From NCBI RefSeq assembly GCF_000526375.1, contig NZ_JAFY01000007.1, positions 62,001-126,000 of the forward strand: 64,000 nucleotides of DNA, given 5' to 3'. Numbering within the stretch: the first letter of the stretch is position 1; each line of letters opens with the position of its first letter. The notes beneath the pieces were generated by a model. The model ran no database searches and was not told the origin of the DNA. It was given only the letters and a program-made list of their open reading frames with translations. Shown here in pieces: positions 1,978-5,927 of this stretch. The stretch comes from Aminiphilus circumscriptus DSM 16581. Its GTDB lineage: Bacteria > Synergistota > Synergistia > Synergistales > Aminiphilaceae. The translations under genes and the position numbers were made by a program.

Positions 1978-2178
1978 AACTTCCGGATTCTGGAGCGAAC
2001 TTCTCCGCTACGCCTGCGGCCCCCTGGCGCGGCGTCTCGCCCTCTTGGATCGTGGATGCTGAACGGTCTCGGCTCCCTGCGGGTGCGGGTGAGCGCGGAG
2101 GATCTGGCCGGTGTCTGGTCCGAGGGTGAGGCCCTCTCCAAGAAGTTGTGTGCGTCAAGTTGTGCAAAAGGGTTTTCA

Positions 2179-2387
2179 TGGTGTTTGGCGGCCGTCTGCG
2201 GGGATTCGCCTGTGGGATCTATCCGTTTTCCGGGCCGGAAATTCTCAGAGATATCATCGACAGCATGCAAAGTGCGTCGGGACTCAGGGATTCCTTCGAG
2301 GCCGTCGGGCAATATCTGCAACAATGCCGTCGGCTTGATGGATGCGAAGGTCGGACGTTAGGTGCCCTCCAGCAAGAAGCCTTCTGA
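2179..2387 (+). CDS. Hypothetical small protein (weak call)
   Basis: An open frame of 69 codons starts at ATG 2179 after AAAGGG and ends just before a terminator hairpin. The predicted product, with a segment GPEILRDIIDSMQSA and four cysteines, has the look of a real protein fragment but matches nothing that I recognise. A competing frame (2056-2361) overlaps it, and the 1978-2180 stretch could be read as the decayed upstream part of a longer gene. Treat it as uncertain. Confidence 0.3.
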
Positions 2388-2461: not shown

Positions 2462-2815
2462 TCAACGGTCCTGAATTCCCAACGAGGACTTCAGTCCCGC
2501 CTGAAGGATCTGCGAGAAGTTCAGTCCCGCTTTTTCGGCGAGGACGTTCAGCCACAGCGGCACCGTGACGTTTTTTTCACCGAGCCGGCGCGCCGCTCCT
2601 CGCGGAAGATCGGGAGCCAGGCGTCCACCAGGCAAACCGCTTCGTTCGGGTTGGGTCGAAGATCGAAAATCCTGGACGGTGGCGGTACCGGCTCGCCGAG
2701 GTCCTCGGTGGCCACGATCCACGCTCCGAGGGCGTCCCGCGCCATATGCAGCTGAGAGGAAACGTATCGCGCCGCACAGAGAGCACTGGCTCGGGGAGAG
2801 GAAAAAGGCATGGCA
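2462..2815 (-). pseudogene. HicB-type antitoxin relic, frameshifted
   Basis: HicB antitoxins neutralise the HicA mRNA-cutting toxin and bind DNA through a C-terminal ribbon-helix-helix. The C-terminal piece reads NVTVPLWLNVLAEKAGLNFS followed by QILQAGLKSSLGI, a clear HicB RHH domain. In the next frame lies the end of the RNase H-like N-domain, with ARDALGAWIVATEDLGE and PPPSRIF. The two pieces meet at a run of seven T (plus strand, about 2571-2577), the likely site of one frameshift. A second frame change is suggested near 2745-2755, where the expected GDTF-x-SA-x-x-MARDALG is scattered over three frames. The true N-terminus is gone and no hicA lies beside it. The gene is dead unless the frame breaks are sequencing errors. 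Confidence 0.75.
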
Positions 2816-2927
2816 CGGGAGAGCGCGCTTTAGGTGTTCGGGTACGAGGGGGAAGAGGTCCGAACGGTTCTGCGGAACGGGGATCCGTGATTTGTGGCGG
2901 CGGATGTGTGCGTGGTGTTGGAGATCA
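2800..2927. repeat. 128-bp direct repeat, left copy
   Basis: Bases 2800-2927 are identical to 5078-5205 by direct reading. Both contain the 5' part of the same Bro-N antirepressor gene, including its ATG and the same two nonsense codons. The copies flank the segment that carries the insertion sequence. Confidence 0.95.
2810..2927 (+). pseudogene. Bro-N antirepressor 5' fragment, left copy
   Basis: The first 39 codons of a phage antirepressor gene. The frame runs from ATG 2810 through a TAG (2831-2833), VFGYEGEEVRTVLRNGDP, a TGA (2888-2890) and then FVAADVCVVLEI. In Bro-N proteins the second position is normally tryptophan (DPWFVAADV), so TGA probably replaced TGG. The first stop probably replaced a CAG. 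Homology stops at 2927, where unrelated sequence begins. It cannot make a protein as read; see the right copy at 5088 for the continuation. Confidence 0.85.
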
Positions 2928-2940
2928 CCCGACTTCGCCG
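2928..2940. repeat. 13-bp inverted repeat, left arm
   Basis: CCCGACTTCGCCG starts exactly where the left 128-bp repeat ends. Its reverse complement lies at 5066-5078, ending where the right 128-bp repeat begins (sharing one G). The pair therefore brackets the whole inserted segment including the IS. Confidence 0.85.
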
Positions 2941-2997
2941 GGTTTGAAACGGGAAGCCTTGCAAACACCGGAAAGTGCATCTTGGGTGGGCACTACA

Positions 2998-3033
2998 CAG
3001 CCCCTCTTTTCAATTCTGTGAAAAGAGGGGCTG
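2998..3033. terminator. 14-bp perfect hairpin at IS edge
   Basis: Bases 2998-3011 pair perfectly with 3020-3033 around an 8-base loop. The stem is CAGCCCCTCTTTTC and its complement. It lies about 90 bases downstream of the transposase stop and at the proposed IS end, so it can stop transcription leaving or entering the element. Confidence 0.6.
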
Positions 3034-3122
3034 TCGTTTGAGGCGGATTTTTCGGTCTCACCGTGTCTCGGGGCTCCGAAAGGTATTTCGAAAGGGAAAC
3101 AGGAGATCTGCTCCCGGCTCGT

Positions 3123-4922
3123 TCAGTTCCTGCCCGTCCCTTCCCCCGCTGTTCCGTCTCCGTCCGTCCCGGCGCTCCGGATCCCTTTCCGGTTCCTGTA
3201 TTTCCTCACCGACAGGATCTCCGTGTTCCCCAGTCCCCGGACGAGGCCCAGGGAACGGTAGATCTTCCGGGCGCTCTCGCTCATGGCCTTCGGGAACCGG
3301 TAGAGTTTCCCCGTCTCTTCGTCCTTCATGAGGGTGGACTGGACATCCAGCAGGGCGGTCCGGATGGCCCGGGCGCTCATCACCGCGTTCTGCCGGACCG
3401 CCACTCGGTGCTGGAGATGCCGGAGGAGGGCGAAGGCGAGGTAGGTGAGGGCTATGTGGGCCTCGATCCTGCGGGGTACCCAGTGATAGACAGGGCGGAT
3501 GGAGAGGTCGTGCTTGTTCACCCGGAAGGATTCTTCGATGCGCCACAGGCTCCCGTAATGGGCGAGGATGTCCTGCGCTTCCGCGGCACTTTCCGCGGGC
3601 AGGTTGGTGATGACTCCGTGAAGGCCGTCCCACCGGCTGTCCCGGAGGATCTTCTCTTCGTCCAGGATGTAGCGGTCCTGTCCGTTTGAATTTTCAAGGG
3701 AGAGGTATTTGTTCGTTCCCCGGTTGGTGACAAGGCTTTTTCCCGGAAGAGTCTTCTTCCCCTGCAGTTTTTTCCGCAGTCGGGCCAGAAGCCGTTCCCG
3801 GTCGGAGGCGTCCTTCCGGGCTCGCCGTTCACTCCAGGTGACGAGCAAATTTCTCCCGTTTCCGAGGGGGACGGAGTACCAACGGGAAGGGCTGCACGTT
3901 TCTCTCTCACCCTCCGGGAAGACAGGCGAACCTCCGGGCAGGGGGGAGTAGTTCCCGGCGTCCAGGATTTTCTCCCTCATGGTCCGGCTGAGACCCCGGA
4001 GTTTCGCTCCCACGACGAAGGAGCATCCCGCCTTCTCCACTTCGTGCAGGTTCTCTTCCGTGAACATGGCCCGGTCCGCCACCACCACCGCCTGCCGGGG
4101 GGAGAAGGTCTCCATGCATCTCCTGAGCACAGGCACAAGAGTATGCCCTTCAAAGGTGTTTCCCGGGAAAAGGTCGTACCAGAGGGGAAATCCTTCCGGC
4201 GTCACCGCCAGGGCGAGCACCACCTGGGTCTCCTGTATCCTGTTGTCCTTGCTGTACCCCGACACCCTCAGGGCATCCGCCTCAAAGCTTTCGAAATAGA
4301 GGGTGGTCACATCGAAGAGCAGCAGCGACGCCTTCGTCTCGAAGAGGGACGCGGTCTCCCGCGCCACGATCTCCCTCACCCGGTCCGTCTTCTTCGCCAG
4401 GGCGTCCATCATTCGGTAGATCCTGTTCAGCGACATGTCCGTCCCGCCCTCGTCCTCCAGCCAACGGGACATCCCCCGCTTGCTCGAAGGATTGGCGAGG
4501 GCGCAGGCGAGGCATTTCTTCAGGACTTCCGTGTTCCCCTTCCCACGGCTGGATACCCCGAAGATCGCCTCGAAGCCCAGGGAGGAGAACAGGCTCTCCA
4601 CGACTTCCCCCGGCCCTTCCGTCACCTGTTCCAGGTTCTTCATCCCCCGGAGGCTGACCCGCTCCCCGTCCCCGACCGGCCGCTCCCACGCCTCTTCGTT
4701 CTCGAGGAGGGAGAACCCCGGAAGAGAGGGCTGCTCTCTCTCCTCCATCTCCAGAATGAGCTTCCGCCCCAGTTCCCGGAGCTCGGAGAGCTGCTTCTCG
4801 TCGTGGGCTATTCCCACGTGCTGGAGAATGACCTGGGAGACCCGTTTCCCGGTGCGGACGGATTTGACGATCTGGACTGATTTTCGCGGACTGAGCTTTG
4901 AGGATTTCACCCGGATATACAT
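3123..4922 (-). CDS. IS4/IS1634-type DDE transposase
   Basis: A cut-and-paste DDE transposase of 599 residues when started at ATG 4922 (an in-frame TTG at 4949 would add nine). The catalytic core is visible in order: LLLFDVTTLYFES (first Asp), VVVADRAMFTEENL (second Asp) and YGSLWRIEESFRVNK, which carries the Y-(2)-R-(3)-E-(6)-K signature of the IS4 superfamily, with E as the third acid. The N-terminal 150 residues, with LQHVGIAHDE, are as in IS1634-type enzymes. The frame has no break and the length is full. The start codon lies in the loop of a perfect hairpin (4911-4939), which may hold translation down. Confidence 0.93.
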   Translation of the reverse strand: MYIRVKSSKLSPRKSVQIVKSVRTGKRVSQVILQHVGIAHDEKQLSELRELGRKLILEMEEREQPSLPGFSLLENEEAWERPVGDGERVSLRGMKNLEQVTEGPGEVVESLFSSLGFEAIFGVSSRGKGNTEVLKKCLACALANPSSKRGMSRWLEDEGGTDMSLNRIYRMMDALAKKTDRVREIVARETASLFETKASLLLFDVTTLYFESFEADALRVSGYSKDNRIQETQVVLALAVTPEGFPLWYDLFPGNTFEGHTLVPVLRRCMETFSPRQAVVVADRAMFTEENLHEVEKAGCSFVVGAKLRGLSRTMREKILDAGNYSPLPGGSPVFPEGERETCSPSRWYSVPLGNGRNLLVTWSERRARKDASDRERLLARLRKKLQGKKTLPGKSLVTNRGTNKYLSLENSNGQDRYILDEEKILRDSRWDGLHGVITNLPAESAAEAQDILAHYGSLWRIEESFRVNKHDLSIRPVYHWVPRRIEAHIALTYLAFALLRHLQHRVAVRQNAVMSARAIRTALLDVQSTLMKDEETGKLYRFPKAMSESARKIYRSLGLVRGLGNTEILSVRKYRNRKGIRSAGTDGDGTAGEGTGRN

Positions 4923-4939
4923 AAAGGAAGTATATCCGG
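4911..4939 (-). promoter_or_regulatory. Inverted repeat enclosing transposase start codon
   Basis: CCGGATATAC (4911-4920) and GTATATCCGG (4930-4939) are perfect 10-bp complements with a 9-base spacer. On the mRNA of the minus strand the ATG spans the loop and stem, so folding would hide it. This resembles the start-site sequestration used by several insertion sequences to limit expression from outside promoters; that role is inference. Confidence 0.55.
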
Positions 4940-5065
4940 AGAAAGACAATATGCCAATAGGGCAAATATGCTAGGCACTACATTTTGATTTCCGGCTTCC
5001 CGATCTTCTGAACCCCCATGAACACTGCATCCCTTTTTTCAAAATCCTTGTTTTCTCGGGAAAAA

Positions 5066-5078
5066 CGGCGAAGTCGGG
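5066..5078. repeat. 13-bp inverted repeat, right arm
   Basis: CGGCGAAGTCGGG, the exact reverse complement of 2928-2940. It immediately precedes the right antirepressor copy. Confidence 0.85.
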
Positions 5079-5205
5079 GAAAAAGGCATGGCACGGGAGA
5101 GCGCGCTTTAGGTGTTCGGGTACGAGGGGGAAGAGGTCCGAACGGTTCTGCGGAACGGGGATCCGTGATTTGTGGCGGCGGATGTGTGCGTGGTGTTGGA
5201 GATCA
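5078..5205. repeat. 128-bp direct repeat, right copy
   Basis: Identical to 2800-2927. This copy is joined to the rest of the antirepressor gene, so it is the original position and the left copy is the duplicate. Confidence 0.95.
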
Positions 5206-5616
5206 GTAACAATCGGGATGCCATGGGAACGCTCGACGACGATGAAAAGGGCGTCGCCATTACCGACATCCTTGGAGGAATGGAGCCTCTGAATAAGGCC
5301 GCGTCAGCCCCGAAAGTGCCTCGCAGAGCTTGATGCGACCCGAGTCAAGGGAAAGCGAAAGACCTTTATTCAGAGCTTCCGAATGACTATCATCAACGAA
5401 TCTGGCCTCTACTCCCTGGTTCTCCGCTCGCGCATGCAGGGGCTCTCGAAAACGATAAAGGGGCTCGTTGGGGTTGCGGCGAGCGTACAAGCGATTCGTG
5501 CCCTGGGTACTTCCTTCATCAACGCTGCCACTCAAATGGAAGGATACCAGACCAAACTTCGCGCCGTCATCAAGGACTCCTCGGCCGCGGATAAAACCTC
5601 CGTTTTGGTTGGATAG
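5088..5616 (+). pseudogene. Phage Bro-N antirepressor joined to tape-measure fragment, multiply disrupted
   Basis: Antirepressors of this type lift prophage repression. From ATG 5088 the frame meets TAG (5109) and TGA (5166), then reads FVAADVCVVLEISNNRDAMG and DDDEKGVAITDILGG, a textbook Bro-N domain. At 5282 a 99-bp element interrupts it. Removing the element and one GAAT copy restores the frame exactly into MTIINESGLYSLVLRSR, the Bro-N hallmark. After about 5430 the sequence changes to LSKTIKGLVGVAASVQAIRA and INAATQMEGYQTKLRAVIKD, typical of the N-terminus of tail tape-measure proteins, ending at TAG 5614-5616. So a deletion fused two distant phage genes. This marks a decayed prophage. 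Confidence 0.85.
5282..5380. mobile_element. 99-bp MITE-like element in antirepressor gene
   Basis: The ends GGAGCCTCTGAATAA (5282-5296) and TTATTCAGAGCTTCC (5366-5380) are near-perfect 15-bp terminal inverted repeats. GAAT occurs directly on both sides (5278-5281 and 5381-5384), a 4-bp target duplication. Removing the element plus one GAAT rejoins GGA GGA ATG ACT in the antirepressor reading frame, direct proof of insertion. It encodes nothing and would need a transposase supplied elsewhere. The terminal sequence resembles that of some IS5-group elements (from memory, not searched). Confidence 0.85.
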
Positions 5617-5848: not shown

Positions 5849-5927
5849 CACATGGTGGGCGACACAGGGCTCGAACCTGTGACCTCTTCCGTGTGAAGGA
5901 AGCGCTCTTCCGCTGAGCTAGTCGCCC
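5849..5927. repeat. 79-bp direct repeat, left attachment site (tRNA-Val copy)
   Basis: Identical to 14582-14660 and made of the whole tRNA-Val plus four bases past its CCA. The two copies are the ends of the integrated element between them. Confidence 0.9.
5853..5927 (-). tRNA. tRNA-Val (anticodon CAC), attachment-site copy
   Basis: Read on the minus strand this is a complete cloverleaf with a 7-bp acceptor GGGCGAC, loop TTCACAC (anticodon CAC), T-loop TTCGAGC and encoded CCA. The sequence equals the copy at 14586-14660. No -10/-35 pair like that of the right copy lies upstream of it (5928-5975), so it may depend on read-through or be silent. It was created as the duplicate end of the integrated element. 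Confidence 0.93.

Follow-up and report, generated by a model that had tools for sequence, protein, structure and literature searches.

A 127-bp target-site duplication left by an IS1634-family insertion sequence in a decayed prophage antirepressor gene

The locus described here almost certainly results from a single insertion of a 2,151-bp insertion sequence (IS) of the IS1634 family into a prophage antirepressor gene that had been broken beforehand, with the target directly duplicated over 127 bp. Its features are collected in Table 1, with positions counted in the window, by which we mean the whole 64,000-nucleotide stretch of Aminiphilus circumscriptus DNA that was analyzed. The initial annotation had reported a 128-bp duplication, and the repeat is real: positions 2800-2927 and 5078-5205 are 100% identical over 128 nt. 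One G at the edge is common by chance to the IS end, so that the duplication proper is 127 bp. This 127-bp sequence occurs at two places only in the whole 3.2-Mb genome, both at the window locus, and a chance origin of the repeat is out of the question. Nothing that we saw speaks against the IS or its duplication. Elsewhere in the window, at an offset of 8733, there is a further exact duplication of at least 40 bp.

Table 1. Features of the IS1634-family insertion and its target in the window
Feature	Position	Strand	Remarks
Target-site duplication, left copy	2801..2927	.	127 bp, 100% identity to 5079-5205; single copy at the empty site in G001 (C50)
Content of left copy: 5' part of decayed Bro-N antirepressor gene	2801..2927		Severed by the IS
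IS1634-family insertion sequence	2928..5078	-	2,151 bp; six full genome copies, 99-100% over exactly these bounds
Left terminal inverted repeat	2928..2945	+	18 nt, 89% complementary to 5061-5078; CCCGACTTCGCCG is its outer part
Perfect 16-bp hairpin within the IS	2997..3034	-	Downstream of the transposase stop; found as a self-match in every copy
Transposase, DDE type	3123..4949	-	608 aa; NCBIfam NF033559 transpos_IS1634, Pfam DDE_Tnp_1 1.3e-13
Right terminal inverted repeat	5061..5078	-	Ends alike in all six copies
Target-site duplication, right copy	5079..5205	.	Original antirepressor frame carries on with 5206 onward
A-tract (GAAAAA) adjoining the right IS end at the target	5079..5084	+	
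Remnant antirepressor (Bro-N)	5088..5336	+	Two in-frame stops; this second copy has the full 5' part

The bounds of the element follow from its recurrence. A genome search with 2928-5078 returned six full copies at 99-100% identity with the same ends, together with one truncated copy of 208 bp, and the IS is therefore 2,151 bp long from inverted repeat to inverted repeat. The 13-bp inverted repeats, CCCGACTTCGCCG and its complement, had been placed by the initial annotation at the exact inner edges of the two copies, which is where they lie (2928-2940, plus strand; 5066-5078, minus strand) and where the only exact matches in the window are found; they form the outer portion of a terminal inverted repeat that is 18 nt long and imperfect (89%). 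A separate middle of about 160 bp, postulated in the same place, does not exist, as 2928-3122 and 4950-5078 are non-coding parts of the IS that are present in all six full copies. The 13-mer at both edges might still suggest that CCCGACTTCGCCG bounds an independent mobile unit into which the IS inserted, but the element recurs in its full 2,151 bp, with these edges, at five other places (99-100%). The proposed search for segments of about 160 bp bounded by CCCGACTTCGCCG gave none in the genome that lacks the transposase, the only partial copy being the 208-bp truncated IS end. We rejected the small unit, whose probability is close to nil. The truncated end (L007 1501-1708; G000 C5:292353-292560) has an outer flank that starts AAAAAAGAGG, and on its far side stands a 40-bp sequence nearly identical to window 2140-2180. 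The hairpin within the IS may be terminator-like or protective.

Membership in the IS1634 family is supported by the transposase and by the ends of the element. The transposase matches NF033559 at 4.9e-99 with 332.5 bits, well beyond the cut-off of 100, and reaches only 42 bits against an IS4-family model whose cut-off is 115. Both IS ends read CCCGACTT, with C at position 1 and T at positions 7 and 8, and match the published terminal consensus C-----YT (PMC2266710). Residues D220, D299, E479, and K486 (615-aa frame numbering) are invariant in 35 of 35 aligned relatives; at the presumed R position of the YREK motif 34 of the 35 have L, and most family members are without that arginine. The length of 2,151 bp is slightly above the published family range of 1,500-2,000 bp, the relatives considered here having about 1,650-2,120 bp. 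The IS4 family proper belongs to the same superfamily and also has a DDE transposase but differs in its duplications of about 10 bp and its full YREK motif (PMC2266710).

Each of the six full copies sits in its own direct duplication, of 127 bp in the window and of 81, 251, 189, 554, and 263 bp at the other sites, and the duplication adjoins the IS ends exactly at all six. Four of these duplications are free of mismatches; the other two have one and two, respectively. At the copy with the 263-bp duplication, a 401-aa frame terminates 63 bp from the IS and is whole because its end falls within the duplicated stretch. The usual product of the family is an AT-rich duplication of 5-6 bp, whereas the six copies have 81-554 bp; IS1549 and IS1634, the name-givers of the family, are the published exceptions, with variable repeats of 8-514 bp (PMC2266710), so that a long duplication is no bar to membership. 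This long-duplication group is marked by long direct repeats that differ between the copies of an element, which is what we observe, and with the repeats published for IS1634 and IS1549 (PMC2266710) the window element belongs to a known kind. IS1634 itself, from Mycoplasma mycoides subsp. mycoides (Vilei, Nicolet and Frey 1999, J Bacteriol 181:1319, cited in PMC1798306 and PMC2266710), resembles the window IS, as far as it is described there, in family and in its long variable direct repeats on insertion; compared without sequence alignment, it differs in having 1,872 bp and about 60 copies as against 2,151 bp and six full copies in another host. IS1549 of Mycobacterium smegmatis, compared by its description in PMC2266710, likewise has long variable direct repeats, and a mycobacterial relative (Mycobacterium riyadhense, 608 bp) shares the clade of the window IS.

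A relative of the same genus (G001) provides empty sites for two of the copies. At the window site it has a single 127-bp stretch (95.3%) and no IS, with 48 bp of left flank, the 127 bp, and 73 bp of right flank contiguous at 94%. At the site of the 251-bp copy a continuous match of 951 bp at 93% holds one copy of the 251 bp. The comparison with a genome lacking the IS at this site, of the kind that the initial annotation had called for, yields an empty site with one 127-bp copy. Given these single copies, the repeats are target-site duplications; slippage is not their origin, nor did the IS enter a tandem repeat that was already there. The initial annotation had weighed an insertion with a very long target duplication against replication slippage around an inverted repeat and had regarded neither as a standard transposition product. 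The six IS copies and the empty sites uphold the former; slippage is superfluous, since the inverted repeats are the IS termini, and the general verdict does not hold for the IS1634 family, in which long variable repeats are published (PMC2266710) and are displayed by all six copies here. Because such duplications are on record for IS1634 and IS1549, neither slippage nor an assembly artefact is needed to explain the locus. In assembled sequence one might suspect a false repeat or an artefact of assembly, but the six independent lengths at six sites, with the repeats exactly at the IS ends, and the single copies at the two empty sites of the relative leave that view implausible, and we give it hardly any weight.

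The relative also bears on the order of events. The two in-frame stops are identical in both copies of the duplication, as had been noted before, and neither is present at the corresponding positions in G001. The simplest order would thus be that the stops arose first and were then copied by the insertion, in agreement with the earlier proposal that the duplication came after the inactivation or together with it. Between the counterparts of window bases 2752 and 2753, G001 holds about 468 bp (C50:5145-5612), either lost in the window or gained in G001.

What was duplicated is the beginning of a phage antirepressor (Pfam Bro-N, 6e-8; PHROG anti-repressor, 1.5e-17). The same antirepressor holds a further insertion at 5281-5381, a repeat about 95 bp long whose 15-bp ends are inverted (GGAGCCTCTGAATAA / TTATTCAGAGCTTCC), which has at least 44 copies in the genome, some of them in tandem (C1:109405-109694), and is absent from the same site in G001. 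This repeat resembles a MITE or REP-type element, and folded as a single strand it is no more stable than shuffled sequences. The frame at 5383-5616 fuses a Bro-N piece of the antirepressor to a tape-measure-like stretch (weak PHROG matches to both), pointing to a deletion within the decayed prophage. Just past this fused frame is a tRNA-Val (cac) gene (5853-5927, minus strand).

Duplications were also measured at intact relatives from the same order and on plasmids. A scan of the genome collection with the transposase gave one distant relative only, and a DNA search of 100 relatives gave few matches, mostly short or at contig ends. A scoring script set the ends of each duplication. Elements that showed no clear duplication were excluded as rearranged or uncertain at their ends; these were one copy each from Rhodococcus, Alicyclobacillus, Mesorhizobium loti, and Rhodoferax, one G162 copy whose flank is common to another copy, some Acidiphilium copies, Gloeothece, and a Streptococcus phage. 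The cut between long (at least 14 bp) and short (at most 6 bp) was chosen after the lengths were seen. Long duplications were measured in two genomes of the same order, G162 (188, 288, 88, 96, 18, 56, and 35 bp) and G052 (51, 459, and 14 bp), and in Actinomyces (56 bp), Rhodococcus (93, 147, 61, 224, 127, 158, 23, and 27 bp), a plasmid of M. riyadhense (608 bp), Persicobacter (406 and 33 bp), Aliarcobacter (680 bp), and a Corynebacterium composite transposon (513-bp outer duplication). Short duplications of 4-6 bp were measured in Alicyclobacillus, Geobacillus, Sulfitobacter, Cupriavidus, Rhodoferax, Sphingobium, Acidiphilium, Dietzia, Streptomyces, and others, and at eight of the eight Mesorhizobium copies measured on one plasmid. 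The composite is found on a Corynebacterium faecale plasmid (L138/L192, NZ_CP047205.1, ~82,300-87,700), where two IS1634-family copies surround SMR-family transporter genes; given the outer duplication around the 5.35-kb whole, the pair probably moved as a unit.

The two classes separate in the transposase trees, which use annotated coding sequences, include 37 transposases at the largest, and do not have the IS1634 and IS1549 transposases themselves among their rows. In the 31-row tree a single clade (support 98/93) unites the 16 long elements with one short element, that of Microbacterium, both copies of which have 5 bp; the 14 remaining elements are without exception short. The 37-row tree agrees. 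The M. riyadhense and Rhodococcus relatives fall with the window transposase, and the hosts of the long clade span four phyla, namely, the window host's own, Actinomycetota, Bacteroidota, and Campylobacterota. Both classes occur on the M. riyadhense plasmid (608 vs 6 and 6 bp), in G052 (51, 459, and 14 vs 6 bp), and in G162, which likewise has a 6-bp element besides its long ones, so the transposase lineage, not the host, determines the duplication class. ISGka5, an active member of the family, makes a 6 bp duplication (PMC8024623); it and the Geobacillus, Alicyclobacillus, and Mesorhizobium elements share the family model, DDE transposase, and end motif with the window IS but have short, near-fixed duplications (5-6 bp); the three groups measured here lie outside the long clade. 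As far as the literature consulted shows, it is new that, among the 37 transposases surveyed, long duplications (14-680 bp) belong to one transposase clade in four phyla, with 4-6 bp outside it. Since duplications of 4-6 bp are made elsewhere in the family, one could imagine that the IS first gave the usual 5-6 bp and that unequal exchange or slippage enlarged the repeat afterwards. We hold this to be very improbable: the duplication is flush with the IS at either end in all cases, most copies have identical repeats, none of the six copies of this IS has 5-6 bp, and the class tracks the transposase tree.

The 2008 review of the IS4 superfamily reported long duplications without a mechanistic model (PMC2266710), and we did not find a later one in the literature consulted. 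A mechanism that, as a whole, we consider rather probable combines two distant strand transfers, an A-tract anchor, and gap filling. The DDE transposase would attach the element's 3' ends to the target, one on each strand, at phosphates separated by tens to hundreds of bases, with one end often anchored beside an A-tract and the other placed without visible sequence choice. Host strand-displacement synthesis would then copy the intervening DNA, so that the direct repeat would equal the stagger in length. A run of at least five A adjoins one end in 11 of 26 long insertions, where 0.33 is expected from random flank positions. In the copies of this IS, the run is on the transposase-start side in four of six and on the opposite side in one of six, and it is present at the surviving end of the truncated copy. 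The non-A-tract end of long insertions has little sequence preference. The A-tract rule fails in 15 of the 26, including all actinobacterial targets. Further points against this explanation are the absence of helical phasing in the duplication lengths and the 5-bp duplications of Microbacterium within the long clade. Alternatively, each IS end might strike a different sister duplex in the wake of a replication fork, at offset positions. The repeat would then be a by-product of replication and would need no wide stagger within a single duplex; of the two daughters, one would gain the stretch and be seen, and the other would lose it. Such a route would give variable lengths without the melting of hundreds of base pairs at once, and it is in keeping with the lack of helical phasing in the duplication lengths of the 26 insertions (best p about 0.06 at 10.4 bp, uncorrected). 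It predicts, however, that deletion-type insertions are as frequent as duplications, whereas all six copies of this IS and nearly all intact long-clade relatives have duplications, a bias that could be one of survival or detection. We regard the sister-duplex route as unlikely.

Taken together, these data make us inclined to read the long variable duplication as a heritable trait of one old IS1634-family transposase clade, spread over four phyla, in which the second end would be joined loosely, up to about 700 bp from a first end that is often sited at an A-tract. The trait would have been lost in at least one case (Microbacterium). Through the duplication the target gene can escape disruption, and host recombination could remove the insertion. 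The locus itself is ordinary for the IS1634 family. The clade split, the hosts and plasmids with both classes, and the close pair of Actinomyces (long) and Microbacterium (short) elements make the question of mechanism testable with ordinary tools. Where IS annotation is built on repeats of 5-6 bp, long-duplication insertions will be missed or misread, and a long duplication can keep a target gene whole, as with the 401-aa frame at the sibling copy.
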